A stretch of DNA of 64,000 nt, taken from positions 4,154,001-4,218,000 of the forward strand of contig CP098528.1 of the NCBI GenBank assembly GCA_030440445.1, given 5' to 3'. Position 1 is the first letter of the stretch. Every line of letters starts with the position of its first letter. Position numbers and translations under genes: made by a program. This stretch comes from Halomonas sp. KG2 (lineage in GTDB: Bacteria; Pseudomonadota; Gammaproteobacteria; Pseudomonadales; Halomonadaceae). The notes beneath the pieces were generated by a model that was given only the letters and a program-made list of their open reading frames with translations, was not told where the DNA came from and ran no database searches. Positions 4,130 through 24,759 of the stretch are shown here, in pieces.

Positions 4130-6190
4130 CTACTCGCCTAACGACTTCAAGAGCGCATCCCTTGCATCTAGGTAGAACTGAATATCGACTTTGGTGGCCA
4201 TCTCATCAGATAAGTCAAACAGCATCTTTCGGGAAGTCACTGGCATAAGAATAGCTGTCGCGCCTTTTTCAACAGCGATCTCTACTAACGTGACGGGATT
4301 ATGAATCGGCTCGATTGACCCACCAAGGTTAATCTCTCCTACTACAATAAGCCCACCTCTCACGCTTCTTTTTAATAGCGCGGAGCTCATAGCTATTAGG
4401 GAAGCCACACCTAACTTACTGCCTGATTTAGCAGCATCAAATGCTCGGAGCTGAATAGTAAACTCATGTTGCCTTGGTTCTTTGTCGCCTACTAATTGCC
4501 CAGCGCGCGTGTAAAGATTTTGCTCGGCATAACCCACACTTTCGCGAAAAGCAGGCGGCACAGGTTTATTAAGAATTTTAACGCCAGTGCCAGGCCCCTC
4601 GTTTACTTCAATACGAAATAAGCCAGGATGCTCTTCTTGCCCATTTGCTGTTTGTCCACCAGGAGTAATAGACCATACCTGGCCTGGCTCTAAAGGGTCA
4701 TTACCAATACTGTTATCACTCTGCAGTTCGGGAGTGGCCACAAACTTCTCTACACCATCTTCCCCCATGGTATAGCTAAAGTGGGTATTTCTAAATTCAG
4801 CGGCACCGATACGTTTTTGCTGTTCCTTTACCCGTCGGCGTGCTTCCATCGCAATGTGAATTGCCCACTCTATATCTTCTTCACTCGGTGTTAAGTCATC
4901 TCCAGGATATAACAACTTCAAGAGACCACTTGCTGTTTTATTAACCGCGTTAGTGTCACGCCCAGATAGCGCTCCGCCAAAAAAGACACGCCCCTGCCAT
5001 TGCGATACACGGCTTTGATTACGCAACTGGCTCCAACATTCAGAAAGAAAATCACTCACTAAACCAAAATGGTCGGTCAAGAGCTCCTTGCTAACCTTGG
5101 GTACATCCCAGCCTGGTAGAAAGGCATGAATGCGATCCATAAAGGCAGTATCGTGACGCATCTCCTCAGGCAGGGGTCCAAACAGGTGCCCGATGCGCTG
5201 TTGATGTTCAACATCGACATCAAAGTTGCCGACTAACACGATAGAGCCATCAGCACGGATGCTCTCCTTACCACGGGAAAACTCCCCACTTTCCATGTAG
5301 CCCTTCATGATATTGACGCCGTCCTTGTTATCGAACGAGATACCGGATACCTCATCGAAGCAGACCACATCATACTGGCACACCAGGCCACGCTGGCCGT
5401 TAGCATTATTGACGAACATCTTGGCCACGGTGGCCTTACCACCGGAAATCAGGTGGGCATAAGGCGATACCTGCTGGAACAAGTGGCTCTTACCGGTACC
5501 ACGGGGGCCAAGCTCCACCACGTTATAGTTGCGCTCCACAAAGGGCACCATACGCAGCAGCATGGCATCTTTTTGGCGCTCGCTCAGCCCAGCCGCTTCA
5601 ATACCAGTTGAACGGAGCAAGAAGGCCTTCCACTCCTCAGTACTAAAATGCCGACGTGCACGGGCTAGTTCGTCGAGCACATCACGTTTTGATAACTGGA
5701 TCTCTCGCAGGGCGCGGATTCCGAAAGGGCGGCCTCCTTGCTCCTGAGCGATGCTAGCGTCGTACTCCAGTGTCAGTTCCGCGTAGAAGCCACCAGTCAG
5801 CATGCGCTCGTGCTCGCTAACCAGCTCGTCAGGAATCCGTACATCGTTGAGGCGCAAGCTTGGCAAGCTCGCCATATAGGTGTCATTTTTCGTATCAAGT
5901 CGCGCTTGTATAAGGTCGATAACCTTGATTTCGCCTTTCTCACGAGCGCGGGCTTTGAACAGTTCTTCCTCGCCAGCTTTGATGGTGCGTGACTTGAGCT
6001 GCCGCTGTACTACTTCCAGGCCTTCCTCAATCTCTTCCGGATCGGTGCTTGCACAGTAGCGGCCGAGCAGGAATTCCACCACGTACGTTGGTACAGGAAA
6101 CTGGCGAGCAAACGTACGCACCAGATCTTTGCGAACCAAGAAACCATCCAATAATTCGGCAGCCTTGCGATCCAGATCATCGAGCTCCAT
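4130..6190 (-). CDS. brxL: BREX protein BrxL (AAA+, Lon-like)
   Basis: 686 residues, the last gene of the BREX operon. Residues 1-200 are the helical N-terminal part. A Walker A motif, GPRGTGKSH, lies at about 228-236 and a Walker B, VVCFDEV, at about 275-281. The C-terminal ~130 residues have a Lon-protease-like fold signature (GSKLGVASLIAMSSAL, then LGGSIEPIHNPVTLVEIA). Aligned by eye with Lon, the catalytic Ser position (GPSAG in Lon) reads GSKLG and the Lys position (GGLKEK) reads GGSIEP, so proteolysis is unlikely. In the BREX family BrxL is an AAA+ ring needed for phage restriction and generally not for host methylation. The start ATG has AAGGGAA upstream and lies 11 nt after pglZ. Confidence 0.93.
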   Translation of the reverse strand: MELDDLDRKAAELLDGFLVRKDLVRTFARQFPVPTYVVEFLLGRYCASTDPEEIEEGLEVVQRQLKSRTIKAGEEELFKARAREKGEIKVIDLIQARLDTKNDTYMASLPSLRLNDVRIPDELVSEHERMLTGGFYAELTLEYDASIAQEQGGRPFGIRALREIQLSKRDVLDELARARRHFSTEEWKAFLLRSTGIEAAGLSERQKDAMLLRMVPFVERNYNVVELGPRGTGKSHLFQQVSPYAHLISGGKATVAKMFVNNANGQRGLVCQYDVVCFDEVSGISFDNKDGVNIMKGYMESGEFSRGKESIRADGSIVLVGNFDVDVEHQQRIGHLFGPLPEEMRHDTAFMDRIHAFLPGWDVPKVSKELLTDHFGLVSDFLSECWSQLRNQSRVSQWQGRVFFGGALSGRDTNAVNKTASGLLKLLYPGDDLTPSEEDIEWAIHIAMEARRRVKEQQKRIGAAEFRNTHFSYTMGEDGVEKFVATPELQSDNSIGNDPLEPGQVWSITPGGQTANGQEEHPGLFRIEVNEGPGTGVKILNKPVPPAFRESVGYAEQNLYTRAGQLVGDKEPRQHEFTIQLRAFDAAKSGSKLGVASLIAMSSALLKRSVRGGLIVVGEINLGGSIEPIHNPVTLVEIAVEKGATAILMPVTSRKMLFDLSDEMATKVDIQFYLDARDALLKSLGE

Positions 6191-6201
6191 GGCAATTCCC
6201 T

Positions 6202-8535
6202 TCAGTCATCAGTACCAATGGTGGTTAAGCATTGTGCAACCACATGTCCCGCTTCATTCACGATCACTACTTGGGCAACCTCACCTTCTAGGTCGTCGTC
6301 ATCAACCACAACCGATGCTTTTCCTCCTGCCTTAAACGGCTTAGAAGACAGCACCAAGCTAGTACTGGGGTCTGCCGCATGACGGCGTAGATCCAACATT
6401 AAGCCATCAGTTTCGCCTTCCACGAGCACGGTGCAGCGCATCCCTTTCCAAACTAACTCGTCGATCACTACAAGAGGTGTGATTTCCGCTGTTCCGGTAA
6501 CTACCAGCTCCGGCGTAACGCACTCTTGCAGCGTCAAACCACCATGGGTGTACGATTCGCCCGCTTTGAAGCAATAGATGCCCTCAGCTAGCGCAAAATG
6601 CACCTGTTCATTCCAGTACCAAGGAAAACGTGCTGTCGCCGTATTAGCCCCTGGTTTTACCGAGGCACAGCGCCCCCACTTAGAGTCCACCAGGCTAGCA
6701 GGAAGCTCTGTTTTTGGTAACTCACCAGGCATTAGCAACCAGCCATGGTCCGTCACTACCCTCACTTGCGCCCACCCTTGGGCAAGTAAGGCTTGAATGC
6801 GCTCCGCTACCTCGGCCAGCATAGCATCTACACGCTGCGCGAGTTTCCAGCCACTTTCATGGCCAACATGATCGATGTCTCCAAACTCACACCAGGCGGA
6901 TTGAGAGGTATCTAGGGTTTCTTTATGCAGCTGTTCTACTTGGCGGCGTTCCAATACTTGCCACCCGTTATCTCGAAGTAACTTCTTGAAAAGATGTGGC
7001 GTAATCGGTGTGAATTGATAGCTCTCCGGTTCTTCTTTAATAGCACTGCTACCAAAGATGGGAGCCACCGCATATTTGCCCGTGCCGGTCACGCTAGGTA
7101 GTGCCGCCCACGTTGAATGCTCTACAACGTTCAAGCCGCGCTGGATGAGTCTTTTGGCAAGCCGCTTACCGCAGTCTAGGCGCAACCCATCAACAAACAG
7201 AACACACTCCCCTTCACGTGCATGAGGAGAGGGCTCATCGCGTTTTAAGCCGTCATCACCTGGCCGCCAAACGGATTGTAAATGCCGGGCAGCGTCATCG
7301 GCCCAACTCAGATAGATCGAGCGAATAGCGGTAAACACCGCCTCTTGCTCTCGTTGGCCAGTGACTTCGGCCAGTGCTTTCAGAACCGCATCATCTGCTT
7401 TCCAACCTTCTTGAACGTAGGCCTGATGCATATCGTCTGCTTGGCCTCCTGCCAAGCTACGCTGGGTTGTTTTGGCTAAGAAGCTAAGCGGTGCTAACGC
7501 CATCGCTAAAGGGCTTTCCCCTAGCTCTGCCCACACCCAATCACGCCGCCCTCCATGATCTTTTTCTAAGGCATCAAGTCGCGTCCTTGCTTGCGGCGCA
7601 GGCAGGTTCCCTAGCTCACATAAAGCATGGTAAAGCTTATCTTCTTCTTGCTGATTTAACTGAGGCCACACCTGCATATCCTCAACTTCTGGAAACAGCC
7701 CAAGGTCAGGTGGCGCCTGCTGTCGAAGCTGCTCTACCAGCTGAGGATAGCGATGTGGTGCTTCACAGAATCGTGCCCATACCGTGCTCCAAGCACCTTC
7801 GCGCTGGGTTAAGCAGGTAAGGGCTTCCAATGGCGTCTGACGTTCTGGGTGGACGCCATACTGAGAGTGGCATACCTGGCAAAAGGCGTGCCACTCAGGG
7901 CTAGACCCACTTGCTTTTATAGCATCTGGCTGGCTTAGCCATCCCAATACATCAAGAACAGGATCACCGCCTATTAAAAGCGTATTGAAGTCATCCCCGT
8001 CTAAATGTCGCCCTTGTAAGTTACTCAGTGACTCTTTAAGCAATCGGGGCAATGCCGCGTGTAACGCCTGGCGAGTTGCCGCATCGCGTGCGATATCCAA
8101 GCCAAGCCCACCCTGTTCTGTGGTGAGAAAAGCACGCGGCGTCCAATCCTTCGCATTAACCTGAGACCACAACACACCTCGATACTGCAGCTCTGCTAAG
8201 GGCTTCAAGGCGTCTGGGCACTCGCTAATGGCCCGCAAATCCTGCCGCCCAACACCGGGTAAATACAAAATAGGCGGCCTACCTTCATTGGCGACAACGC
8301 CCTCAACGGTACCGGCGATAGCGCATCGCAACCAAATGGCCGGGCCTCGCCGCTCTTCAGGCGCATACTCCCCTAACACCAATAGTTCAGGCAGCACAGA
8401 CTGAATTTGGTTGATAACAGGCTCCCACAGCCGCTCGCGATCTGGCCATAAGATGCAGGCTGGCGCAGCTTGAACATCAGGGTTGTGAGCAGACGTATTG
8501 CGGATAGCTTGCTTGAGCTGGTTCAGAAGATTCAT
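6202..8535 (-). CDS. pglZ: BREX phosphatase-fold protein PglZ
   Basis: 777 residues from the ATG at 8535. An in-frame TTG further upstream would add 21 residues but falls inside the small ORF at 8538-8681. The C-terminal half has alkaline-phosphatase-superfamily metal-site motifs: VLFVDGLRLD at about residue 445-454 and VVTDHGWLL at about 593-601. PglZ is a core BREX component that associates with BrxB and the PglX methyltransferase; its metal-dependent hydrolase activity has been reported for the family. The gene starts 2 nt after the stop of the short ORF at 8538-8681 and ends 11 nt before brxL, so these genes are co-transcribed and probably translationally coupled. Confidence 0.93.
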   Translation of the reverse strand: MNLLNQLKQAIRNTSAHNPDVQAAPACILWPDRERLWEPVINQIQSVLPELLVLGEYAPEERRGPAIWLRCAIAGTVEGVVANEGRPPILYLPGVGRQDLRAISECPDALKPLAELQYRGVLWSQVNAKDWTPRAFLTTEQGGLGLDIARDAATRQALHAALPRLLKESLSNLQGRHLDGDDFNTLLIGGDPVLDVLGWLSQPDAIKASGSSPEWHAFCQVCHSQYGVHPERQTPLEALTCLTQREGAWSTVWARFCEAPHRYPQLVEQLRQQAPPDLGLFPEVEDMQVWPQLNQQEEDKLYHALCELGNLPAPQARTRLDALEKDHGGRRDWVWAELGESPLAMALAPLSFLAKTTQRSLAGGQADDMHQAYVQEGWKADDAVLKALAEVTGQREQEAVFTAIRSIYLSWADDAARHLQSVWRPGDDGLKRDEPSPHAREGECVLFVDGLRLDCGKRLAKRLIQRGLNVVEHSTWAALPSVTGTGKYAVAPIFGSSAIKEEPESYQFTPITPHLFKKLLRDNGWQVLERRQVEQLHKETLDTSQSAWCEFGDIDHVGHESGWKLAQRVDAMLAEVAERIQALLAQGWAQVRVVTDHGWLLMPGELPKTELPASLVDSKWGRCASVKPGANTATARFPWYWNEQVHFALAEGIYCFKAGESYTHGGLTLQECVTPELVVTGTAEITPLVVIDELVWKGMRCTVLVEGETDGLMLDLRRHAADPSTSLVLSSKPFKAGGKASVVVDDDDLEGEVAQVVIVNEAGHVVAQCLTTIGTDD

Positions 8536-8537
8536 TT

Positions 8538-8681
8538 CTATATTGATACCTTGAGATTGGCTTTCACCACCACTACTTTTGCCAGCTGCTCGGGGCAAGG
8601 GGAATCACATTTAAATTCAACGACAGGGTTTTCGCTTTTAGCGATAATTTTCAGTAGCTCTGTCTTCAGCACCCTGGTCAC
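8538..8681 (-). pseudogene. 47-codon AlbA_2 (Schlafen-like) stub between BREX genes
   Basis: A GTG start (8681) lies 1 nt after the stop of the TrlF-like gene, and the TAG (8538-8540) lies 2 nt before the pglZ ATG. The peptide contains LLKIIAKSENPVVEF, then KCDSPCPEQLAK and KANL. This is the typical beginning of AlbA_2/Schlafen-like ATP-binding proteins (ENSGVEFKRDD...PEQLAKE...ANLxGG in the family). The protein stops where the GG strand and the rest of the domain should begin, and the Ala/Phe before AN is Lys-Ala. It is best read as the truncated remnant of a full AlbA_2 gene. Its tight operon spacing leaves open that the mini-peptide is still made or only serves translational coupling. Confidence 0.6.
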
Positions 8682-8682
8682 C

Positions 8683-11340
8683 TCAAAAGTTGTATTTCAT
8701 GCGGCGCTGCTCAAAGGCTTTCTTACCACCTTCAAGGATATCGGCGGCCAGCTTCTGAACCTCTTCCATATCGATGGCGCCTTGATGGTGCTCAGGGATC
8801 GTCGCTTGATCATCGCCTGCTTCAAAAACGCCGATCCACTCTGCATCACCGAAAACAGGTATGTTGGCGTTATGGGTGGCAAAAAGGAACTGACGATCAA
8901 GCTTTGCCTTGCGTAGTTCCGCGACGATGCGCTCTGCAATAAAGGCGTTATCAAGGTTGTCTTCAGGCTGGTCAAGAATAAGCGGGTCCTGATTATCCAG
9001 CAGAAGCAAATGTAGAATCGCCGTACACTGCTGCCCCGTAGACAGACGTTCTAGCGGCCGGTACTGCTCTTGAGCATCGTCATGAGCCACGTTTAGTTCG
9101 ATCGTCACTCTATCAGGAAGCGACAGCTCTTCGAGCGCTAGAAGTTGATTCTCAGATAGTCTCACAAGCGCGTCCGCAACCGTTGGCGTTATTCCCCATT
9201 CCGTTTTAAGCAGCTCATCACGGCCCTGACGAATGGTATGCGCTAATAGCACCGGCGATGCCTTGGCCTCCAATACCCATGCTAAGCGCTTTTCACCGAT
9301 ATTTTCGAGATTGCAATTTCTAAGAAAGTCTACCAACGGCTGTCGATCGCCTTCTATCTCCATGCCAAGACTCAGCTTACCCTTGAGCTTCCTTTGTAAT
9401 CGCCTCAACGCCTGCTGGAGAGACGCAGCACGCTCGCTCAGCGTGTCGCCCAGCTCAGCTAAAAGGCTTCGGCGTTCACTCCATAACGCCTCCAGTTGTT
9501 CCTGGCGCTGATGAAGCTTGGTTTTCCTGGGCTGTATGCGCTCAATTGCCTGCAGAATACTTTTATAGTCATTGCCGATTTCTTGTCCAGACTTCCCTTG
9601 GCTCCCTGGTATTTTTTTGAAGTGTTTTTCCAGTTGTTCTTCCTGCTGTCGCACCTGCTCTAATAGCTGTGTTTCTATCGCCTGCTGTTCACCTTGTGAT
9701 CGTTCTACTGCCTGGGTGGTTTCACCGATTAGCTTCTCAACACTGGTACGCAATGCATCCAACATAACGCGCTGCTGAAGTAACAGTGCGGCATTGGGCA
9801 AGTGGGCTAATGCTTGATCGCTTAAAAAGGAGCTATCTGGTAGAGAGTCGCGTAAGTACTGAATAGCACCATTGACGCGTTGAACGCCTTCTTGCGCGCG
9901 TTTATTCAGTTGACGCTCTTTTTCCAGCAAAGGCACTGATTGCAGTTTCTCCTCCAGCCCGAGCTCCTTATAGTGAGCGGCCTTTGCCTCAAGCTTAGGC
10001 AATTGCTCAACGTCAGCCTCGACCTCTGCCTTTTGTTGAATTGCCCGAAGGATGGCTTCGCGATTTTCCGACAACTTTTTCCTGATGCCATCGAGCTTGG
10101 CATCGTAGTCGCTATGGGATGCCTGAAGAAAGCGGGAGAGCAATTGACGTTGGTCACTGGGTTCTTGGGTTATCTCATAAATTTCATTCTGACCAAAACA
10201 CTCAAAGCGCGGCATCAGTTCATTGGGTGAAAACGGTACGATATCGCCATTTTCATCTTTAACAACAGGGTTATCGCCAAACCGACGTGACACGGTAAAT
10301 CGCCTGCCATGCATACTGGCCGAGCGCACAGTTAAGAAGACCTGCGCTTTTTCCTTGCCCAGGTTTTCCTCAATAGTCGCATCGTGCTGCCGCTGAGCAT
10401 GCCTGCCCAGTGGCCGAATGCCAAGTACAAAACGAATGCACTCGATAAGTGTGGATTTACCCGTACCACGCCCACCAATCACTGCGTTCAAATGATCAGA
10501 TAGCGCGACGTTTAAACCGTCTAGATACCCCCCCACTACCTTGATGGTTTCGATAGCTGACGCGTGATGCTGAGGTGCATCCGAATTAAGCCGTATACGA
10601 GATTCAGAATCACAAAACGCTTGCTTGAATGAGGCAAAGCAAGGCGTGGTCATTTTTATCAGGCATGATGCACTTAGATGGCGCAAGGTTTCAGGCGTCT
10701 CAACGTCGCGCGCATTGATAATGGCGAGAGGCGTTTCTCTCTTATAATTTTCGTCTTTATTTCTGGCAACTTTATAAAAAAAACCATCTTCAGCAGGTTT
10801 GAGGCCTTCAACCGATCCAGGTATCTGAGCAGCGGACAGCTCCTGTAATCTCCAAACGTTATGTAGCCGTTGCTTGAGGACACCATCGTCACTCGTGACA
10901 TGCGCCGCATAGGCGAAGCCGCCTAAGTCCTCTACTTTTTGCAGGATCTGCTGCGAGGTCCGGTTGACGGGTGCTCCTGGCTTTTGCGTATTAATACCAA
11001 ACCCAACTGTCATCTGCCCATGAAGATCGCGCAGATCCGTATTTTCCTGAAACAGACACACAAAGTGTGCCTGCTCGCTGGAAGCAATTTCGAAGCCAGG
11101 AAATACCACGATGCCATGTGGCTCAGCCGCACGGCGAATAGATTCGATATCCTCGACACTGCCGTGATCCGCAATGCCAAGCACTTTGATCCCTTCTTCC
11201 AGGCAGATATCAACCAACTGCTGGTTATACGCTTCTTCTGAAAGGCCATGAGACTGGCTGCGGAAGGTTTCCGTATAACGGTAAGGGTTGACCTGAAGCG
11301 CGCACTTCCAGAACTTTGCCCCCGTATACGTTGCAGACAT
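8683..11340 (-). CDS. PHP-domain/SMC-like ATPase (TrlF-like) inside BREX
   Basis: 885 residues from ATG 11340, with a G-run Shine-Dalgarno in the end of pglX; a TTG at 11346 would give a short overlap with pglX. Residues ~40-230 form a PHP phosphoesterase domain (IADHGS near 58, FPGFEI near 83, AAHV near 148). Then come Walker A GGRGTGKST (~291-299), a ~230-residue coiled-coil region rich in Gln/Glu/Leu, an ABC/SMC signature LERLSTGQQ, and Walker B LILDQPEDNLDN. This architecture matches proteins called TrlF family AAA-like ATPases. The likely activity is ATP-gated nucleic-acid cleavage or phosphoester hydrolysis, which would suit a phage-defence accessory. It is not a core BREX gene. Spacing to both neighbours shows it belongs to the operon. 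Confidence 0.85.
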   Translation of the reverse strand: MSATYTGAKFWKCALQVNPYRYTETFRSQSHGLSEEAYNQQLVDICLEEGIKVLGIADHGSVEDIESIRRAAEPHGIVVFPGFEIASSEQAHFVCLFQENTDLRDLHGQMTVGFGINTQKPGAPVNRTSQQILQKVEDLGGFAYAAHVTSDDGVLKQRLHNVWRLQELSAAQIPGSVEGLKPAEDGFFYKVARNKDENYKRETPLAIINARDVETPETLRHLSASCLIKMTTPCFASFKQAFCDSESRIRLNSDAPQHHASAIETIKVVGGYLDGLNVALSDHLNAVIGGRGTGKSTLIECIRFVLGIRPLGRHAQRQHDATIEENLGKEKAQVFLTVRSASMHGRRFTVSRRFGDNPVVKDENGDIVPFSPNELMPRFECFGQNEIYEITQEPSDQRQLLSRFLQASHSDYDAKLDGIRKKLSENREAILRAIQQKAEVEADVEQLPKLEAKAAHYKELGLEEKLQSVPLLEKERQLNKRAQEGVQRVNGAIQYLRDSLPDSSFLSDQALAHLPNAALLLQQRVMLDALRTSVEKLIGETTQAVERSQGEQQAIETQLLEQVRQQEEQLEKHFKKIPGSQGKSGQEIGNDYKSILQAIERIQPRKTKLHQRQEQLEALWSERRSLLAELGDTLSERAASLQQALRRLQRKLKGKLSLGMEIEGDRQPLVDFLRNCNLENIGEKRLAWVLEAKASPVLLAHTIRQGRDELLKTEWGITPTVADALVRLSENQLLALEELSLPDRVTIELNVAHDDAQEQYRPLERLSTGQQCTAILHLLLLDNQDPLILDQPEDNLDNAFIAERIVAELRKAKLDRQFLFATHNANIPVFGDAEWIGVFEAGDDQATIPEHHQGAIDMEEVQKLAADILEGGKKAFEQRRMKYNF

Positions 11341-11342
11341 TG

Positions 11343-14300: not shown

Positions 14301-14759
14301 GGCCAGGGTAATTTCGAACACCGGGCTATCGACGCGGAACACTTGGGGCAGCATGGTACTGGCCAGTTGGGCGGCTAAGGCCCAGCCACTGGCATGCCCT
14401 TCCTCTTCCGCCAGCTCCTCACACTCCTCCAAGGTGACGGCCACGCCGTCGTACATCAGCAGCTCGTTCTCGGCCAGAAAGCGGGCAAATAGCATGCGGT
14501 GCCAGTGCTCATAGGCAATTTCACTAATTAACCGGGTAATGGACTGGGCACCTTCCTGTAGCGGGTCGCCGAGGCTGCGGGCGTGGGCGCGCAAACGGCG
14601 GCGCAGGGCACGCTGGCCGTCGTTTAAATAGCTAGGGGCACTTTCCTCGCCTACACCCAGCTGCTCTAGTGCGGCCTCGGCGGCCTGCTCGGCCACTGGG
14701 CGTGCTTGACGAACGGTGCGATAGAGCTGATTACGGAGTGTTTTATCGAGTGGCTGCAT
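11343..14759 (-). CDS. pglX: BREX DNA methyltransferase PglX
   Basis: 1138 residues. The SAM-binding motif I, LDPCCGSGHF, is at about 294-303. The amino-methyltransferase motif IV at about 477-480 reads NVPF instead of the usual NPPY/F, in the context VITNVPFKETKQLG. The size and the downstream long C-terminal target-recognition region fit PglX, the adenine-N6 methyltransferase that marks host DNA in BREX and is needed for phage exclusion. It follows the AlbA_2/HATPase gene after a 139-nt gap full of inverted repeats and precedes the TrlF-like gene with almost no gap. The gene is more GC-rich at its ends than in the middle (about 12.3-13.4 kb), where the recognition domain would be; such mosaics are typical of specificity exchange. 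Confidence 0.93.
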   Translation of the reverse strand: MQPLDKTLRNQLYRTVRQARPVAEQAAEAALEQLGVGEESAPSYLNDGQRALRRRLRAHARSLGDPLQEGAQSITRLISEIAYEHWHRMLFARFLAENELLMYDGVAVTLEECEELAEEEGHASGWALAAQLASTMLPQVFRVDSPVFEITLAAEYKRELEELLAGLAVEVFHASDSLGWVYQFWQTDNKERINRSEVKIGADELPAVTQLFTEPYMVSFLLDNSLGAWWVARRLSETDLANAESEQELRNKASLPGLPLEYLRFVKDEETGHWTPAAGTFDGWPESLAELKTLDPCCGSGHFLVAALLMLVPMRMELEGLSARDAVDAVLRDNLNGLEIDQRCVELAAFALAITAWRYPSAGGYRPLPELHLACSGLSISVAKEEWKALGLGKKNLTIALDWLYDSFKDAPILGSLLDPTRTSAAKVAQWSELSEALNQALAQEGSEEQHETAVTAQGLAKAATLLGDRYHWVITNVPFKETKQLGNTAQSFIAEHFSLGQANLATAFLLRIYGFLNSCGTASLVTPHEWLFLGSHKKVRQYLLHNSKWRFLADLGEHAFESSQAAGAFTALLSYSREPLGLGSSSEYYAIDALHEKGPHAKKVHLQKMIGKNLLQEKQLSNPDFRIGVHESSELPLLMEKSGSYVGLQNGDTPRYVFQFWEIGLIKENNAWSLYQLPCESTQHYTGRDGLIRWENGLGELYNSPLARIQGTEAWNKKGVAIRQTRTLPATLYSGDIYDQSSAVISPKDKSDLEAVFAFCESQSFHDEVRKIDKKKNVTNATLVKIPFDIDFWKIIAKEKYPHGLPAPYSNNPIQWIFHGHPCGSVIWDEETKWTSHGSLRIDDTVLQVAVARLLGYRWPAELDPEMELAEEQREWVERCEALLGHADRDGIVCLPAVRGERRAVDRLEALLADAYGDQWSATTRGKLLESVDHAGKDLESWLSDKFFTQHCKLFQNRPFIWHIWDGLKDGFSALVNYHKLDYKNLEALTYNYLGDWIKDQKDQREKGIDGAEEKIAAALALQTRLALILEGEEPYDIFVRWKPIEEQPIGWHPDLNDGVRLNIRPFLSVHDVKKKDAGILVHKPNIHWKKDRGKDVESAPWYNLGPQLSGAKGDRINDYHLTLAAKKAARGNSGGD

Positions 14760-14819
14760 AATGATGCTTCTTCCCTGTCACTGTCGGCAGGCGTGTGCCG
14801 AAAAATGTTGCGTTGCCTA

Positions 14820-14900
14820 GAATTGCACTAGCGTGCAATTCACGTGCAATTCTTCGATTAAATGCACGGAGAATGCCCGAAGGGCAATTACCCGTGCATT
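14820..14900. promoter_or_regulatory. dyad-rich gap between BREX genes
   Basis: The 139-nt gap before pglX holds GAATTGCAC (14820-14828), its complement GTGCAATTC at 14833-14841, and another copy at 14844-14852. Next to these is a two-level hairpin: outer arms AATGCACGG (14861-14869) / CCGTGCATT (14892-14900) and inner arms TGCCC/GGGCA, which on the minus strand close a stable C(UUCG)G-type loop. Read on the transcribed strand it could terminate or attenuate the upstream gene and bind a regulator controlling pglX. No clear T run follows. Confidence 0.5.
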
Positions 14901-16617
14901 AAGATGCGGGTGGTATCCAATAGTAGCGAGAGCCGGCGCCACGTCCTTTTTGCTCCACCTGCCCAGTCTCGCTTGTCAGCTCTTGCATCAGCTGCCCTAC
15001 CTGGTTGCGGGTATAACGTGTCATGTGGCGGATTTCGGCGTTTTGCAGGCCCTCTTCACCACGCTGGGCACGGTCTTTGAGGACACTCAATACCCGTGTT
15101 TTGGCGGCCTCCCAATCGATACGGCGGCGTTTATCCGTATTACCGTCGGCCACCAACCGCGTGTACAGTGCCGGGTAGAGACTCCAGTAGGCACCACGGC
15201 CACTGCCGCCGTGCTCTACGTAGCCTTGCTGCTCCATGCGCGCAAGCAGTTCACGTGTCTCAGCTTCGCTGCGCTGGCAAAGGCCGGCTGCCGTGGCGGT
15301 GTCCATTTCAGCGTGCTGAAGGAGGTATTGCAGCAGCAGCAACTGATCGACCCCCAGGGATCGCCCGCTTTGACTTTCTTCGGCGACAAACTGCCGGAAT
15401 ACGGCGTTAATCTGACGCTGGTGAAAAATCACCGCGATAGAATCACCGATTTCACGGATTACTGGCGGTTCTTTACCTTCCATCAGCATGGCGGAATACA
15501 TACGGCTAACGCCGAGGTTTGTCCGGTTTACCAAGCGCAGTTTAACTAAAGCATCTACAAGCAAGGGGTTCCGTGCCGCTGGCTGGTGGTGAAGGATGTT
15601 GTTCTCTCTAATACCCGCAATAAACCCACCGTTATTGCTAATTTCCAGCCGCTGCGGGTAAAGCTTGACCATCACCGGGCCAGCAATGCGTAGATCTAGG
15701 TGGCAAAAGGCATTCATCAATGCCTCGCGCACGGCTATTTCTGGCCAAGTACGGTATTCGAAGTGGAACATGCCCTGTTCCACGGTGGTAATAGGATTAA
15801 AGGGCACCAACAGGTCTTCAATACGCTGAACAGAGAGAGGAATGGCACTTACCCGGTCTTCACGCACGCCATAGACGGTATCGGATTGCATTTGCAGAAA
15901 GGTCCACAGATGCCCCGGTACATGCTCGCGTAATGCCGCCTCAGTACCCGCCAATAGAATGGCGGCCCTTGTCATCTGACCATTGCGTATCAATCCCAGC
16001 GTATCTAGCAGTTCTATATCTGGTCGGCGCAGCAACTCTTCGGGCGCTCGTTCGCGCTGCGCTAGGGTGCGTAGTGCCTCCATCGCTACCGGGGAAAGCA
16101 GACTTTCATCAACGCGACCAATGGCCTCGGCGGTGTAGTCGGTTTCACCGGTTTCGACGCCGATTTTGCGGCGCATTGTGCCGGTAAGTGGCTGACAGTC
16201 CTTGCCAACCCTCACGGTTCCGCCGCCTTTGGTATCGGTATGGGGCGGCATGCCAGGATGCACCTGCATAATGAGCACTCGGCCAGTGCCTTCAGGTACA
16301 TGTAGCTCTTCAAACACCGGCATGATGTGCGGGTCCGTTTGATCATAAACGGCTCGCTTTAAAAGATTGACGTCAATTTCCGGCGATACACCCAGGACAG
16401 CGCTTTCGCGGCCTTTGGCTTTGTCTGCCACCCCAAATACAACGGTTCCGCCACCGCCATTGGTCATACAAACCGCCATTTGCACAACCTTCTGTACCGC
16501 CTTATCACGACTGCTGGTATCCCACTGTTTAAAATCGAGATCCTGGTCTTCTAGGTCGTCAGCAATACAGTGGTTTAGTTCGTCTAGCAGCGCTTCGACG
16601 TCGCGTTGTGTTCTCAT
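14899..16617 (-). CDS. AlbA_2/Schlafen-like and HATPase_c_4 protein in BREX
   Basis: 572 residues. The N-terminal ~150 residues are an AlbA_2 (Schlafen-like) domain, with DLDFKQWD near 27 and the Gly-rich GGGGTVVFGV near 54-63. A middle region carries a GHKL-type ATPase segment (VREALMNAFCHLD and ISNNGG) as in the RecG-like COG2865 regulators. The C-terminal third has two winged-helix-like stretches (VDQLLLLQYLLQHAEMDTATAAGLCQ split by linkers). Such proteins are called transcriptional regulators or ATP-binding proteins, and their role in defence loci is not settled. It lies 12 nt after brxC and before pglX in the same operon. It could be a regulator of the locus or an added effector; I cannot decide from sequence. 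Confidence 0.8.
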   Translation of the reverse strand: MRTQRDVEALLDELNHCIADDLEDQDLDFKQWDTSSRDKAVQKVVQMAVCMTNGGGGTVVFGVADKAKGRESAVLGVSPEIDVNLLKRAVYDQTDPHIMPVFEELHVPEGTGRVLIMQVHPGMPPHTDTKGGGTVRVGKDCQPLTGTMRRKIGVETGETDYTAEAIGRVDESLLSPVAMEALRTLAQRERAPEELLRRPDIELLDTLGLIRNGQMTRAAILLAGTEAALREHVPGHLWTFLQMQSDTVYGVREDRVSAIPLSVQRIEDLLVPFNPITTVEQGMFHFEYRTWPEIAVREALMNAFCHLDLRIAGPVMVKLYPQRLEISNNGGFIAGIRENNILHHQPAARNPLLVDALVKLRLVNRTNLGVSRMYSAMLMEGKEPPVIREIGDSIAVIFHQRQINAVFRQFVAEESQSGRSLGVDQLLLLQYLLQHAEMDTATAAGLCQRSEAETRELLARMEQQGYVEHGGSGRGAYWSLYPALYTRLVADGNTDKRRRIDWEAAKTRVLSVLKDRAQRGEEGLQNAEIRHMTRYTRNQVGQLMQELTSETGQVEQKGRGAGSRYYWIPPAS

Positions 16618-16629
16618 GCCCTTGCGCTC

Positions 16630-19600
16630 CTACTGGGTGATGACCGGTCCATTCTGGAGGGCATCGCGTAACTCTCGGCGGGCATCCTCAAGCCAGGCTT
16701 CGATATCGTCTTCACTCTTCAACGTACGGCGGGGCAATTCAACAAACTGAATTTCTGGTTCCATCGCCTCGGCAGCTTTAACCAGCACGTCGTCAAACCG
16801 GCTAGAAAGCGCAGCAATGCGATCCGCTAAGGCATCAGGTCGTACATGGCTTAAGGTGGCAAGCACCTCCGCTGTTGAGCCGAGGCTAATGGCAGGTGCG
16901 TCGGCCGCTGTCAGGCGTTTAGTAGCAAGCAAATCATGGCGTTCATCTGGTGACAGCTGTTGCCAGTTATCGTCTGCTTCTAACCGTTGCATACCAGTGG
17001 CGTGCTCACGCTCATAGCGCTGCTGGAGGTCGTTGAATACTTCTCGGAATTGTTGGGTCAGGCTCGCTAGCAACGGCTGCACGGGGTCAGGGTCGTCTAA
17101 TAAGGAGCGGTGCGCTTTAATTTGCTCCACCTGAACGAGCAAGGGTTCAGCCGCTTGGAGCCCTCTCGCGTAATCAGCAAGCTGTTTAAGCGTTCCCCAT
17201 GCTGGCCGGCGTTGCGTAATTTTCTCAGCCGTGGCCTGCCAGCTTTCAATGGCATTAATCAACTCATCTTGGTTGGTGACGATAGCCTTCAACTGGTCGT
17301 TACCGCTACTTAAGCGAACGGCATCGAGCGCATCCACATTAGGCTTTTCTGGCAATGGGGCTTCGCCCCCTGCTTTATCTGCTAGTGCTTGCAGCTCTGC
17401 CACAAACTCAGGGGCTTTAGCAGACTCCTCGCCTGATTTGGGGTGTACACCAAGCTTCTGCATCACTTTGCGGATTCTGATGCGCTCACCAGCTGAAAGC
17501 GTGGTGGCTTCAATACGGAAGTCCGTTTTACCAATGGCTCGCCTATCCAGGTCTTGAGGGGCGGTATTATCTGCTGCTCGAATTTGGCCAGCGACCAACA
17601 ATACTTGTAGCGCACCATCAATGGCGTCTTGTGGCCAGCCAAAGTCACCATGCTCAAAATGGTCGCGTATCTCGCTGCCCTTTTTCCCGTTGGATAAGTA
17701 GCTGAGAATCGCCTTACACACAGGGTGCACCTGAGGCTCGCCGTCGTAGCCAATAGCACCCAGCGCATCAGGCGCGCCCTGCTTCGCTTTGGCATACACT
17801 TTGTCCCAATTGGCATGATCCGCCAGGTGAAACTTGGGGTGCAGACGCGCTAACGCGTTCTCAGCACCTTCTAAAATAGCGTCGCGTAGCGTGGCTCCGA
17901 TAATTTCATTGCCACCGCCCTGAAACACCTGGGCACCGTTGAAGGCATCGTCTAACAGCTCTTTAATGCGGCGCTGGGCACTATTTTGCGTGGTTTGCAT
18001 TGCCCCGCGTGCTTCTTGCCCCTTAGGGGTACCTGGTGTACCTCGAGTTTCCAGTGTTGCCGTCGCCGCTCTAAACTCAATCAACTGATTGCGTAATTCG
18101 TCAGCGGAACGCTTAGGGATAAAGACAAACAGTGTGGGGGACTCTGACCCAGCTTGGCGAGCATCGGCACGTAGCTGGCTAACATCATCCGACCAACCAT
18201 TACGTACCCATACATAGAGTTTTTCGTTCGCATCGTTGGGCAGAGCCATATCAAATATTGGCGACAGCGGCCGCGGCACTTTAGCGTTACCGTGGGTCAG
18301 CGTGAGGTTGCCTACCTGCTGTGCAAAGTGCTTACGTATGAGATCATCGCGCTCAGTTTCAATTTGATGCGTAGCATTACCCAGCGTGCTCTTATGGCTA
18401 AGAAAAGCGTCGTTCCAGGCAGCACTCTCCTCGGTTTGAATGCGATATTCATCCCCCACTTTGATGATGAACTCACAACCATCCAGTAGCCCAGGCAATT
18501 GGCTGCGCAGTGAGCTGCTGCCTGCTTTTAGGTCATCGACTAACAGGTCGGCAATATTATTGAGCGTGGGGTGCAGGCCCAGATCGGTGTTCGTGCTGGC
18601 TACTTTATTAATCAGAAACACAATCGCGCAGGCACGTGCCATCAGGCGCTCTGTTTCATTACCACTTCTCCAGCGCTGTGTTGCATCGTGCAAACGGCGA
18701 GGCAGCATACGGAACTGCAGTAGCTTGTCCGAGAGATTAAAGTAGAGGTAATCTGCCGCGATAATATTACCGAGTGGTTCGTCTAAATTCGTTTTTATCG
18801 CCGCATGGATAAGGCTTAGCTGGCCGCGAAGCTGGCTGTCGGTACCAGTTTGGTCGAGTACACGTAGCGCTGCATCCCAGAAACGCCTGCGTACCGGCAG
18901 AATAGGGTAATCCTGAGCGAAATGCTGGGTATCGTCCTGTTTGTGGGCAATAGAAGACTCGGATAGGTGGCGCGAAATCTCGCCAACATTATTGTCCATT
19001 ACCTGCTGAACGGATGTTTTTGCTTCAGGTTTCTTGGCGAGCAACACCTGCCTAATAACGGCATCGACGTCGGCATCGGAAAGCTCAATTCGACTGGTAA
19101 AGCGCCCCTGTAAACGTGCTAGGTTGCTGGTACCGGTAATAGCGGTTTGGCCGGTGCCAATAAACATCAATCGGCTACCTAAGCCTTTGCAGCAAGCTTC
19201 CACTGCTTCTTGCACTTCAATTGAGCGCTGCCCATCCGTGCCGATGTACTGCTGTACTTCGTCTAGCACAACTAACGTAAGAGGTAATTTGCCCTCTTCA
19301 CTTAATGCCTGACGAATCGCCTTAAGCATGTCGTCACTGCTGATATCACTGGTAGGCGGAAAAAGGTTGCCTAGTGTTTCTGCGCACACTTCCACGCTGC
19401 TAAACGTTTTAGGCTTCGCCTTTACTAGCGCCTCATGTAGCGACTCTGCGACGTAGAAGTTATCCAGCTCTTCTTGCCAATCGTCTCCTTTAGCCGCTAG
19501 ATCTTCACGCACCTGCTCTAAAATGCCTTCATCCCGTAGCCACATGACAAAACGCGCCACCGGATACTGCTGAGGTAAACCTGCCGCGCGAAAAATGACC

Positions 19601-20064
19601 GATAGCAGCGCTAACCGGACGCTTTGATCGCGGGAGCTCGCGCCTAATGTACCGGAAGCTGCAAATAGGCCACCATGGCGCTTACCTTGGGTAGAAAGCT
19701 CTTTGAAAAGGTCTTGTATCTCTTGGGGTAAATGGGCAATACCGCGAGCAGTAGCGCCGTCATCAAATGTCACGTCTTCCCACAGGTTACGAAGCATCTT
19801 CGCCATGTGGGACTTACCCGAACCAAAGAAGCCACTGATCCACACACCAGGCTGCTGAGAAGCGCCACTGCTCAAGTTTCTCAGGTAGGTGTCTAGGATG
19901 TCATGCATGCCTTTCGCGTATTGACCATCGCAAACAAACGTCTCTAGCTCGTAGCGCAAAACGGTTTGTGCACGACTACTAGTGTCGTCATTAACGTACG
20001 CAACGCCCTCGTTGACTAAACGTTGTTCTGCAGGGTCCTTGGCGTAAATATCGCGATTGCGCAT
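16630..20064 (-). CDS. brxC: BREX ATPase BrxC
   Basis: 1144 residues, a usual length for BrxC/PglY-family ATPases. Walker A GFFGSGKSH lies at ~78-86 and a Walker B-like LVVLDEVQQY at ~263-272. A long helical middle (residues ~600-1000) and a coiled-coil-like C-terminus follow. The start ATG has AGGAAAGG just upstream. BrxC is a core component of every type 1 BREX system, required for both methylation and phage exclusion and thought to bind DNA. It lies 78 nt after brxB and 12 nt before the AlbA_2/HATPase gene, so all are in one operon. Confidence 0.93.
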   Translation of the reverse strand: MRNRDIYAKDPAEQRLVNEGVAYVNDDTSSRAQTVLRYELETFVCDGQYAKGMHDILDTYLRNLSSGASQQPGVWISGFFGSGKSHMAKMLRNLWEDVTFDDGATARGIAHLPQEIQDLFKELSTQGKRHGGLFAASGTLGASSRDQSVRLALLSVIFRAAGLPQQYPVARFVMWLRDEGILEQVREDLAAKGDDWQEELDNFYVAESLHEALVKAKPKTFSSVEVCAETLGNLFPPTSDISSDDMLKAIRQALSEEGKLPLTLVVLDEVQQYIGTDGQRSIEVQEAVEACCKGLGSRLMFIGTGQTAITGTSNLARLQGRFTSRIELSDADVDAVIRQVLLAKKPEAKTSVQQVMDNNVGEISRHLSESSIAHKQDDTQHFAQDYPILPVRRRFWDAALRVLDQTGTDSQLRGQLSLIHAAIKTNLDEPLGNIIAADYLYFNLSDKLLQFRMLPRRLHDATQRWRSGNETERLMARACAIVFLINKVASTNTDLGLHPTLNNIADLLVDDLKAGSSSLRSQLPGLLDGCEFIIKVGDEYRIQTEESAAWNDAFLSHKSTLGNATHQIETERDDLIRKHFAQQVGNLTLTHGNAKVPRPLSPIFDMALPNDANEKLYVWVRNGWSDDVSQLRADARQAGSESPTLFVFIPKRSADELRNQLIEFRAATATLETRGTPGTPKGQEARGAMQTTQNSAQRRIKELLDDAFNGAQVFQGGGNEIIGATLRDAILEGAENALARLHPKFHLADHANWDKVYAKAKQGAPDALGAIGYDGEPQVHPVCKAILSYLSNGKKGSEIRDHFEHGDFGWPQDAIDGALQVLLVAGQIRAADNTAPQDLDRRAIGKTDFRIEATTLSAGERIRIRKVMQKLGVHPKSGEESAKAPEFVAELQALADKAGGEAPLPEKPNVDALDAVRLSSGNDQLKAIVTNQDELINAIESWQATAEKITQRRPAWGTLKQLADYARGLQAAEPLLVQVEQIKAHRSLLDDPDPVQPLLASLTQQFREVFNDLQQRYEREHATGMQRLEADDNWQQLSPDERHDLLATKRLTAADAPAISLGSTAEVLATLSHVRPDALADRIAALSSRFDDVLVKAAEAMEPEIQFVELPRRTLKSEDDIEAWLEDARRELRDALQNGPVITQ

Positions 20065-20142
20065 GCGTCCTTTCCTCGGCGGTGGGAGTGTGCGTTTGAA
20101 ACAGGCTTGCTTAAGTAAATGTAGATATACTGTATATCAGGC

Positions 20143-20694
20143 TTAGCGCACGCCGTCAGGTGTAATTGGCGTTGCGAGGTAATTCCAGCCGTCATAACCA
20201 TCTAATAGGCGGTAATTATTATTTTCAAAGCTGCCGGGAAACAGAACAACCAACCGGCCTGTGATGTGAGGGGCTAGGCGATCGACAACCTCCTTCACTT
20301 TCAGTAAACCAAATAAACTTCCCACGCCATGGACTGCGACGACATGATTATCATCAACGGAGTGCTCGCTCAGCTGCCGCATGAAGCGCTGTTCAAGCCA
20401 ATCCAAGTAGCGGTGGATAACGGTTGTCAGCTTCGTAGGAGATTTAAAGTAAGAGGTGGCGTACTTCTGTTCCGCCATCCATAGGGCAAACGTGTCGGTG
20501 AGGTCAAAGGTTACCCATTCATGTCCATTTTTCCGGGTAACCAGCTCAAACTCATCTAGGTTGGCTTGTAGGCGCAGCTCTTCCGTTTCGGGATAAACGC
20601 AAAAAATCACCCGCTGAGCAGCGGCCGTATCATCACGCCACGGCAGTGAGATAAATTGGCCATAAGAATCTGTCAGGCGCTTTATTTTGCTCAT
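20143..20694 (-). CDS. brxB: BREX protein BrxB (DUF1788)
   Basis: 183 residues with the DUF1788 pattern: VIFCVYPETEELRLQANL near the start, then VVAVHGVGSLFGLLKVKEV, and GRLVVLFPGSFENNNYRLLDG near the end. The ATG overlaps the brxA stop by 4 nt (ATGA). BrxB is a small core BREX protein of largely unknown activity that interacts with PglZ. The 78-nt gap to brxC contains no strong hairpin. Confidence 0.93.
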   Translation of the reverse strand: MSKIKRLTDSYGQFISLPWRDDTAAAQRVIFCVYPETEELRLQANLDEFELVTRKNGHEWVTFDLTDTFALWMAEQKYATSYFKSPTKLTTVIHRYLDWLEQRFMRQLSEHSVDDNHVVAVHGVGSLFGLLKVKEVVDRLAPHITGRLVVLFPGSFENNNYRLLDGYDGWNYLATPITPDGVR

Positions 20695-21509
20695 AGCATC
20701 TCTTCCTGAGCGGTATTGGCTTGGATCTCTGACATGGCACTATTAACCACAGGAGCGAGCGCAGGAAAGTCGACATCAATCACGCTATCTACCCGGCGCA
20801 TCACCATCCAGCCGCGCGACGATGCGCTGGCAGCTAATGCTAAGAAGTGGTCCGTGTCACAGTCCAGCAGCTTGCAATAGGGACTTTGTAGCAATAGCTC
20901 GCCTCTTCCACCTTGCAGCCAAGCAATATATAGCGCATACGCGACAGCTCCTGTCGCAGGTTCAACAGGTGTGCGTACTTTCTTTACATGCCCCCGTAGA
21001 TGCCCTGACTTTGTGAGGGTGCCATTGATATTCTGAGCAGCTGATCTCCTCGTAGCAGGACTGAAACGTTCAGGCCAGCAAGCCTCGATGTGCTGTTCGG
21101 TCCAATCTCGCGTAATGGTTGTGCCTGGAGGCTGCTGGAGAATCTCGGACATGGCTCCGCGCAGTAAGCTATCCCGTGCAGTGGCAGATAATAATGCTAG
21201 CAGCGGACGGGCCTCGACATCACGGCACCAAAAATACAGAAGCCCCGCGAAAATAGGGTTTGCAGGATCAAGACCGTATAGCTCTGTTAGGTGCCTAGCG
21301 GTTAGCTGACGCGAGCGCCCAGAGGGCTTGGCGAGGCAGTTTTGCTCACAAATCGCCGCCTGGTACTGATCGCGTGAGGCTTCTGTGCCCGCCCATTCCA
21401 GCAGCGTCGTGAGCTCGGCCAGCATCATAGTTCGGGATAAGTGAACACCGCCCGAACGGGTCATGAACCCCATCGCTTGGAGCTTTATTGAGTCAAGTGT
21501 CGACGCCAT
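20691..21509 (-). CDS. brxA: BREX protein BrxA (DUF1819)
   Basis: 272 residues, longer than many BrxA proteins (about 200). The DUF1819 character is seen in MMLAELTTLLEW, FAGLLYFWCRD and the C-terminal VAYALYIAWLQGG ... LLDCDTDHF. BrxA is a DNA-binding core protein and is the first gene of the operon here. No BrxR-type WYL regulator gene precedes it; the next gene upstream is the divergent relaxase-like gene. The operon promoter should lie in the AT-rich 21510-21690 gap. Confidence 0.9.
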   Translation of the reverse strand: MASTLDSIKLQAMGFMTRSGGVHLSRTMMLAELTTLLEWAGTEASRDQYQAAICEQNCLAKPSGRSRQLTARHLTELYGLDPANPIFAGLLYFWCRDVEARPLLALLSATARDSLLRGAMSEILQQPPGTTITRDWTEQHIEACWPERFSPATRRSAAQNINGTLTKSGHLRGHVKKVRTPVEPATGAVAYALYIAWLQGGRGELLLQSPYCKLLDCDTDHFLALAASASSRGWMVMRRVDSVIDVDFPALAPVVNSAMSEIQANTAQEEML

Positions 21510-21690
21510 CTACCGTTAACTCTCGTTAGTTTCATTGGCTATGAACTTTATCACGGCAGCCCACACGGTGCCGTACCGCAAGCTATGTGTGAGCTATTTT
21601 TGATTTTTTAAAAAAATTTCATTTATTCAGGGCACAAGCGCTGCCACTGCCCCTTATTAAGTGATAAGCACTTTGATAAGAGGCAACAAG
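21510..21690. promoter_or_regulatory. divergent promoter region of brxA and the relaxase gene
   Basis: 181 bp between two divergent genes. It contains a strongly AT-rich core (TTTTTGATTTTTTAAAAAAATTT at about 21597-21619, given here only to mark the A/T tract) and a small dyad AAGTG/CACTT near 21660-21674 with two GATAAG repeats. An origin of transfer is often found just upstream of MobV-type genes, but I cannot identify a nick site. Confidence 0.45.
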
Positions 21691-24532: not shown

Positions 24533-24646
24533 TGGTTTTAGTGCATCGTTCGTCAGTTGGACAGAAAAATGAGCCTAAGCAAATCGATTTTGGGATTGCG
24601 CCTTGTGGTTACTAGTGTGGTTATAGCTGCTGACTGGCCAAAACAA

Positions 24647-24674
24647 AAGGGCTTACGTGTTAACGTAAGCCCTT
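24647..24674 (-). terminator. intrinsic terminator of the tRNA gene
   Basis: A perfect 12-bp stem AAGGGCTTACGT/ACGTAAGCCCTT with a 4-base loop lies 8 nt beyond the tRNA 3' end. On the minus strand it runs into TTTTGTTTT. This is a classic intrinsic terminator for the tRNA transcript. Confidence 0.85.
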
Positions 24675-24682
24675 GATATGTT

Positions 24683-24759
24683 TGGCGCGCCCGGCAGGAA
24701 TTGAACCTACGACCTTCGGCTTCGGAGGCCGACACTCTATCCAACTGAGCTACGGGCGC
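24683..24759 (-). tRNA. tRNA-Arg (anticodon CCG)
   Basis: 77 nt including an encoded CCA. The acceptor arms GCGCCCG (5', at 24759-24753) and CGGGCGC (24693-24687) pair fully. The anticodon stem UCGGC/GCCGA closes the loop CUCCGAA, giving anticodon CCG, which reads CGG (Arg). The T-arm GGUUCGAAU is present. The 3' end points toward the island at lower coordinates, the usual orientation for a tRNA used as an attachment site. Confidence 0.95.

Follow-up and report, generated by a model that had tools for sequence, protein, structure and literature searches.

Two accessory genes on either side of pglX in a type I BREX operon of Halomonas sp. KG2: a Schlafen-type ATPase protein and TrlF

Organization of the BREX operon

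The 64,000-nucleotide stretch of the Halomonas sp. KG2 genome analyzed here (contig CP098528.1, positions 4,154,001 to 4,218,000; termed the window, with coordinates counted from its first letter) carries on its minus strand a BREX operon in which two additional genes lie among the core genes, one between brxC and pglX (slot 1) and one between pglX and pglZ (slot 2). Read from 21509 to 4130, the order is brxA (20691..21509; PADLOC BrxA, 308.1 bits), brxB (20143..20694; PADLOC BrxB, 252.4 bits, and Pfam BrxB), brxC (16630..20064; PADLOC BrxC, 1557.5 bits, and NCBIfam BREX_BrxC, 930.9 bits, with a Walker A motif at residue 78), the slot-1 gene for a protein of 572 residues (14899..16617), the adenine methyltransferase gene pglX (11343..14759; PADLOC PglX, 1682.8 bits), the slot-2 gene for a protein of 887 residues (8683..11346), pglZ of BREX-1 type B (6202..8598; PADLOC PglZ, 1009.9 bits, and NCBIfam NF033450, 898.6 bits) and brxL (4130..6190; PADLOC BrxL, 990.1 bits, and Pfam BrxL_ATPase, with a Walker A motif at residue 228). 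All eight frames are intact. Each of the six core genes matches its PADLOC family, in agreement with a preliminary description of the DNA that had listed them as complete and in this order, and these matches identify the locus as a type I BREX operon that is complete and belongs to the PglZ-type-B lineage.

The spacing of 1-12 nucleotides (nt) that the same description gave for most junctions holds for four of the seven (two 4-nt overlaps and gaps of 12 and 11 nt), but not for the remaining three (78, 139 and 84 nt). A search for promoter-like sites on the minus strand gave none between the operon genes and two inside brxL; the lack of intergenic sites is compatible with a single transcript, but is no demonstration of one.

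The usual motif IV of N6-adenine methyltransferases is NPPY. The window PglX has NVPF at this position, and NVPY/F was present in 18 of 21 aligned PglX sequences; NPPY was seen in three (loci L076, L082 and L095), in operons whose PglZ is of type A or distant by the models used. As judged from the alignment, NVPF is a lineage trait. In a sister operon (L182:7532-13389) pglX is split into three pieces, with frames of 334 and 342 residues between them.

The 572-residue protein between brxC and pglX

The slot-1 gene encodes a Schlafen AlbA_2 plus GHKL-type ATPase protein with a C-terminal extension. The AlbA_2/HATPase reading of the preliminary description is borne out, both Pfam domains being matched (SLFN_AlbA_2 at 7.2e-18 and HATPase_c_4 at 2.5e-17). 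The family has many close members: of 7997 scored candidates, 1318 are relatives with E values of 1e-10 or lower, and the best 120 of the 1318 are at least 67% identical. An alignment of 41 sequences shows no variation at E23 and D28 and has D65 in at least 90%; the ATPase residues E298, N302 and H306 are likewise invariant. For the tRNase SLFN13, E205, E210 and D248 are reported as active-site residues (PMC5862951), an acidic spacing close to that of E23, D28 and D65 in the window protein (5 and 37), the likeness being a match of spacing only and not a structural alignment. The C-terminal part of the window protein has no Pfam match to a winged helix-turn-helix (wHTH) domain, and MarR_2 is listed for two of the best 120 relatives (P0067 and P0084). 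Among solved structures the sole match of the family is 3lmm, an uncharacterized protein. A plasmid search with the 572-residue protein gave, among the matches listed (40 of 67 records), only relatives of up to 31% identity, with four records covering at least 80%, all at ~22%.

In all seven BREX operons read that carry it (the window, L117 and L148-L152), the gene for the 572-residue protein lies between brxC and pglX; since the other six operons were all found via the protein itself, this count informs on place and not on frequency. Rakesh & Krishnan (2026) describe a BREX back-up effector composed of a Schlafen RNase, a minimal histidine kinase and a wHTH, present in at least 1017 taxa, in BREX and BREX-related systems (PMC12839542). 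The slot-1 protein shares with this effector both its domains (AlbA_2 and a histidine-kinase-type ATPase) and its operon setting, and is very probably one of the effectors reported there. Relative to the main text of that article, in which a term search found no occurrence of PHP, TrlF or AlbA, the present analysis adds the brxC-pglX place of the Schlafen gene and its exchange for an OLD-type pair.

The same genome encodes a second AlbA_2/HATPase_c_4 protein, of 415 residues (L187:11562-12809; C1 near 1497485), which stands between a SNF2 helicase and an N6/N4 methylase; behind the methylase comes a Res-like protein of type III.

TrlF between pglX and pglZ

The 887-residue slot-2 protein is identified as TrlF, with 541.9 bits on NCBIfam NF045780 (cut-off 350) over positions 2-944 of the 944 in the profile. 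The protein has a PHP-like part at its N terminus, an ABC/SMC-type ATPase head and, in the middle, a long region. Pfam gives a match to AAA_23 (1.2e-11) and, below the curated cut-offs, to SMC_N (33.9 bits against 40) and PHP (25.1 bits against 26.4), so that the protein had rightly been read as a PHP part joined to an SMC-like ATPase. The Walker A motif (291-298), the signature LSTGQQ (768-773) and the Walker B region, with DQPEDN at 792-797, are conserved in 44 aligned TrlF sequences, and structure matches, all weak, are to Rad50 and SMC heads.

The nuclease that had been proposed on this basis fares less well. The metal ligands of PHP domains follow the pattern HxH...H...E...H...H...DxH, of which HxH is the first motif. 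A PHP-like part is present in TrlF, but Q-V-N stands in place of HxH, and all 44 sequences share Q18 and N20; at the other PHP positions H61, H94, H149 and D214 are invariant, and E86 is kept in at least 90%. The replacement of HxH renders a working PHP nuclease uncertain.

Several alternative assignments for the slot-2 gene were rejected. Ppl has a PHP-SMC architecture, and its profile (NF042955) gives a partial match to the same ATPase region at 169.1 bits, far under the cut-off of 1000. PARIS AriA gave partial matches only (best 37.3 bits), with no DUF4435/TOPRIM match in the operon, and the PADLOC matches to Gabija and Septu are only partial or weak. A recent insertion of trlF was considered from base composition, but its G+C content (50.2%, against 54.8 and 53.4% for its neighbors) is not telling.

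TrlF and TrlG in other loci

Among other TrlF loci, taken as the best 80 of 180 TrlF relatives, 61 carry directly downstream and on the same strand a gene for TrlG, an AlbA_2/HATPase_c_4-type protein mostly of 380-470 residues; this count includes L066, with a broken TrlG, and L027, with one cut by the contig end. In the window, by contrast, trlF is followed after 84 nt by pglZ, without trlG directly downstream.

By the models used, the setting of TrlF is BREX in 12 of the 80 loci, type I restriction in 7 and neither in 61. In three type I restriction operons (L003, L024 and L083) the TrlF-TrlG pair lies between hsdS and hsdR. Among the 61 loci outside both settings, single loci looked up by Pfam or PADLOC revealed Wadjet and type III restriction cases. 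In Wadjet type II the pair lies between jetB and jetC (L052:6301-18872), or jetA and jetC were identified near TrlF (L059), and in Wadjet type I it precedes jetB (L017); in type III restriction mod and res flank TrlF-TrlG, with mod leading (L084:7870-17387), or res stands before TrlF (L071). The other neighbors looked up pointed to no known system: L035 has an Hsp90-type gene and L161 an FtsK gene, and for L037, L045 and L159 a single gene apiece was checked and had no PADLOC match.

Across 369 genomes of the window's class, TrlF exceeds its cut-off in 20, with an adjacent TrlG by the models used in 11 and none in 9, the window included. TrlF accompanies BREX beyond expectation, an excess that the preliminary description had looked for: of the 8 genomes in which PglZ type B exceeds its cut-off 4 have it, as do 15 of the remaining 360 (p 3e-4 by a one-sided Fisher test), where the window's genome is excluded, genome relatedness does not enter the statistic, and genome G196 (L120, below the PglZ cut-off) counts as lacking PglZ type B. 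In three of the four PglZ-type-B genomes having both, TrlF is inside the BREX operon, and in G055 it is elsewhere. On a tree of TrlF proteins, from which pieces of fewer than 800 residues were left out, 13 changes are required to account for the BREX loci that have TrlG, 11 of them forced by branches at the starred support level; shuffling gave a mean of 15.1, and as low a number in 23 of 500 cases. The 13 changes point to repeated uptake or loss.

Cargo positions across BREX operons

Called frames, in gaps of more than 250 nt, occupy 16 of 24 readable brxC-pglX junctions and 22 of 26 readable pglX-pglZ junctions, compared with 0 of 18 at brxA-brxB, 0 of 18 at brxB-brxC and 0 of 25 at pglZ-brxL; most of these operons were found via TrlF or the 572-residue protein, a selection by cargo that inflates the two positive counts but not the zeros. 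Gaps without a called gene were observed twice at brxC-pglX (540 and 621 nt) and once at pglX-pglZ (472 nt). L112, which is the same operon as L075, is out of the junction count and stands for L075 in the PglZ-based sample; the readable junctions of L115 and L119 (both cut by contig ends) and of L120 are counted, although these loci are outside that sample; L148 and L149 each lack two junctions because the gene filter called no brxB in them; and L116, a decayed operon, is only described.

Two further samples bear on how often the slots are filled. A BrxC search of 201 genomes of the family, blind to cargo, yielded nine operons, six with the gene for the 572-residue protein and three without, and of these nine, eight have an occupied slot 1; slot 2 is readable in eight and occupied in all of them. 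In the PglZ-based sample, comprising eight readable operons including that of the window, slot 1 is filled in 3 and slot 2 in 5, the occupant of slot 2 being TrlF in 4 of the 8. A two-slot rule is proposed, under which cargo sits only beside pglX; the 572-residue protein is common in this BREX sub-lineage.

The content of slot 2 varies among operons carrying the 572-residue protein. It is TrlF in the window, GmrSD in L117, and in L148 genes of 438 and 622 residues (the latter Hsp70) plus an opposite-strand frame. L149 carries genes of 368, 424 and 628 residues (the last Hsp70) followed by GmrSD, L150 carries GmrSD followed by genes of 368, 417 and 622 residues (again with Hsp70 last), and L152 a TrlF-like gene, a 426-residue AAA_21 ATPase and a 202-residue gene. 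A three-gene cargo (368, 417-435 and 622-659 residues, the third Hsp70) recurs between pglX and pglZ at L150:13044-17266, L149:4317-8578 and L182:13421-17703, and L148 has its last two genes. In L151 a 495-residue gene without a Pfam match (L151:11359-12846), possibly defence cargo, directly follows pglX and is itself followed by a transposase and the contig end.

The operons without the 572-residue protein are similarly diverse. Two sister operons whose BrxC is 84% identical to that of the window have in slot 1, replacing the Schlafen protein, an OLD-type ATPase and a gene of 152 or 153 residues (L182:5733-7501 and L183:5568-7420), the 153-residue gene of L183 having no Pfam match; slot 2 of sister operons also holds OLD-type ATPases or TrlF with TrlG. 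In the third operon (BrxC 45%), slot 1 is empty and slot 2 holds GmrSD, an AAA_21 ATPase and a 202-residue gene.

Both positions have precedents, and the description of the two genes as accessory to the BREX core, at positions that host accessory defences elsewhere, agrees with the published record. BrxU lies between brxC and pglX in the BREX locus of pEFER (PMC8565348), and an ATPase plus DUF4435 pair, deletion of which was without effect on methylation, lies between pglX and pglZ in Salmonella BREX (PMC9009780) and is named PARIS in PMC11341690. The window resembles these loci in that a type I BREX operon hosts extra genes at the same junctions, and differs in its cargo, a Schlafen/GHKL-type protein and TrlF being neither GmrSD nor an OLD plus TOPRIM pair (PADLOC gives partial matches only); Pfam finds neither GmrSD_N nor GmrSD_C in the window. 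Although the accessory slots of BREX are already known, TrlF as an occupant was not found in the literature searched; a preprint on bacterial Schlafens (doi 10.1101/2025.07.24.666596) and a survey of ABC ATPases (gkaa726) may already cover parts of the present findings. Term searches of PMC12707154, PMC12458937 (these two with TrlF by name) and PMC13326643 returned no passage on TrlF or AlbA_2 genes in BREX; in a Vibrio plasmid, record annotation already gives the name TrlF to a gene that lies between pglX and pglZ.

Interpretation

We consider it probable, at roughly 0.6, that the two genes are independent accessory back-up modules riding on BREX in the slots either side of pglX, i.e. a Schlafen protein and an exchangeable TrlF, within a probably element-borne operon. 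Type I BREX is established to methylate self DNA and to block unmodified phage DNA, and this would be the first step. If BREX is blocked or overwhelmed, the ATPase domain would release or switch the Schlafen protein, which would then cut tRNA or other RNA and stop growth, a step suggested by the domains, the conserved residues and the SLFN13 precedent. TrlF would sense abnormal DNA or its ends, inhibition of a complex, or failed restriction, and would act through an effector, which elsewhere would be TrlG; the sensor role is suggested by its SMC-type head. The window TrlF might act alone, via another protein or via the slot-1 protein, or it may be losing function.

A partial and indirect precedent is the trlR-trlF-trlG (TRL) operon of Photorhabdus, in which growth arrest at 36 °C was reported to be lifted by trlG mutations or by loss of the operon (PMC7554251). 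It shares with the loci described here a TrlF accompanied by an AlbA_2 plus HATPase_c_4 protein (TrlG), and differs from the window in that trlG directly follows trlF, in the absence of BREX, and in probably belonging to another family branch. The domain coordinates given in that paper, together with synteny to pYR3, point to the TrlG of P. laumondii being of the L008 type; the main TrlG branch is represented in four further Photorhabdus loci.

Several observations weigh against two BREX-linked back-up modules, in addition to the selection of operons by their cargo. Four of the 16 filled slots 1 (L076, L079, L082 and L095) are weak, holding frames of 140-155 residues or on the opposite strand, which leaves 12 of 24, and both slots are empty in three of the eight PglZ-sample operons (L111, L113 and L114). 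SLFN13 has Glu where the 572-residue protein has Asp (D28). A copy of the first half of that protein, 52% identical, in L121 of genome G303 (L121:13534-14394) ends at the contig end and is preceded by 13.5 kb in which the models used find no BREX gene, a hint that some members of the family may occur without BREX, and a 28% relative (L122, G133) is near type I restriction genes. With respect to TrlF, it lies behind brxL, not in slot 2, in L004 and L050, and 19 of the 80 TrlF loci are without an adjacent TrlG, which in L065 and L091 may be due only to a contig end within 400 nt of TrlF. With respect to the Photorhabdus comparison, the account in PMC7554251 records no trlF mutations, and pYR3, syntenic according to the same source, has an L008-type TrlG (61% identical) whose identity with the main TrlG branch is ~28-31%.

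Among the other explanations, the slot-1 protein might not be an RNase but act in regulation or as an additional subunit of BREX, which we regard as unlikely. Its relatives are named in sources as RecG-like helicases or as RNA-binding or DNA-binding domain proteins, two carry the MarR_2 helix-turn-helix, and the replacement of the second catalytic Glu by Asp, the strong conservation among the best 120 relatives and the fixed place beside pglX would all suit such a role. Nevertheless, the AlbA_2 acidic residues are invariant or nearly so, and the two sisters with the OLD-type pair at slot 1 do without the 572-residue protein there, so this BREX lineage seems not to need it.

It is less likely still that the two genes form one system distributed over two slots, in which TrlF would do the sensing and the Schlafen protein of slot 1 would replace a lost TrlG as the effector. 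In its favor, the protein that usually follows TrlF has the same domain make-up as the slot-1 protein, both genes are in one operon here, and the window's TrlF adjoins a clade of 23 rows, 20 of which keep TrlG (support 93, below the starred level), a placement that suggests it has lost its TrlG. A tree of 95 AlbA_2/HATPase proteins, from which TrlG-type proteins of under 370 residues (L121, L066 and L027 among them) were left out, argues otherwise. The 572-residue family forms in it a tight clade of 15 rows (branch 2.52, SH-aLRT 99), far from TrlG, and 76 other rows hold all 74 TrlF-adjacent proteins, apart from that clade; the deep branching order is unsure owing to the quick tree method and several long-branch warnings. 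On the basis of the tree we also reject the idea that the 572-residue protein is a TrlG relocated to another slot. Moreover, the 572-residue family keeps its place in six other operons, and in the four of these whose slot 2 was read whole the models used find no TrlF there (of the remaining two, L152 has a distant TrlF-like gene, and the contig of L151 ends before pglZ). Given the 19 loci without an adjacent TrlG, a lone TrlF is not exceptional. The nested system that the preliminary description proposed for the two genes is not supported, and no conserved pairing of them was found.

We consider it improbable that the genes are passengers for which the operon is a safe landing site with no functional link to BREX: cargo does vary between operons and TrlF is outside BREX in 68 of the 80 loci by the models used, but TrlF and TrlG nest in several kinds of defence operon, and the 13 changes on the TrlF tree fit repeated uptake better than chance leftovers.

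A broader and more tentative reading, which we hold as possible but would not presently favor, is that TrlF/TrlG constitutes a general plug-in alarm for any host system, placed where modification or sensing genes adjoin effector genes (between pglX and pglZ in BREX, hsdS and hsdR, mod and res, or jetB and jetC), which would sense failure, cleave RNA and stop the cell. The Photorhabdus arrest would then be a misfiring, and the alarm in the window would have lost its effector and may borrow the slot-1 Schlafen protein. If it is true that TrlF and TrlG guard BREX, restriction and Wadjet systems, they would represent a fail-safe module of the PrrC/PARIS type with a different sensor, and the growth-arrest locus of Photorhabdus would gain a natural cause. 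Of ~9,000 genomes reported to have co-localized pglZ and pglX, ~7,000 have genes between BREX components, and ~5,000 of these regions are without a known defence system (PMC11341690); TrlF/TrlG may explain a share of the ~5,000. The two-slot rule, with cargo beside pglX only, points to where new defence genes may be sought.

Genomic setting

The operon probably rides on an integrative element of ~26.9 kb in tRNA-Arg, as judged from the flanking sequence. An imperfect direct repeat of ~102 bp, consisting of the 3' part of tRNA-Arg(CCG) and flanking sequence, occurs at 24637..24737, the likely right end of the element, and beyond the window at L186:17726-17827 (~-2274 to -2173), the left copy. 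A tyrosine integrase gene (L186:17910-19238) lies just left of the window and just inside the left repeat. Also between the repeats, on the plus strand and divergent from brxA, is a gene for a MobV-family relaxase (21661..23067; NCBIfam MobV, 126.8 bits, cut-off 100), and an IS30 transposase is inside the putative element. Elsewhere in the window (49058-49344), opposite a 571-residue frame, lies an Rfam match to 5_ureB_sRNA (89.8 bits), which may only reflect a urease-type gene.

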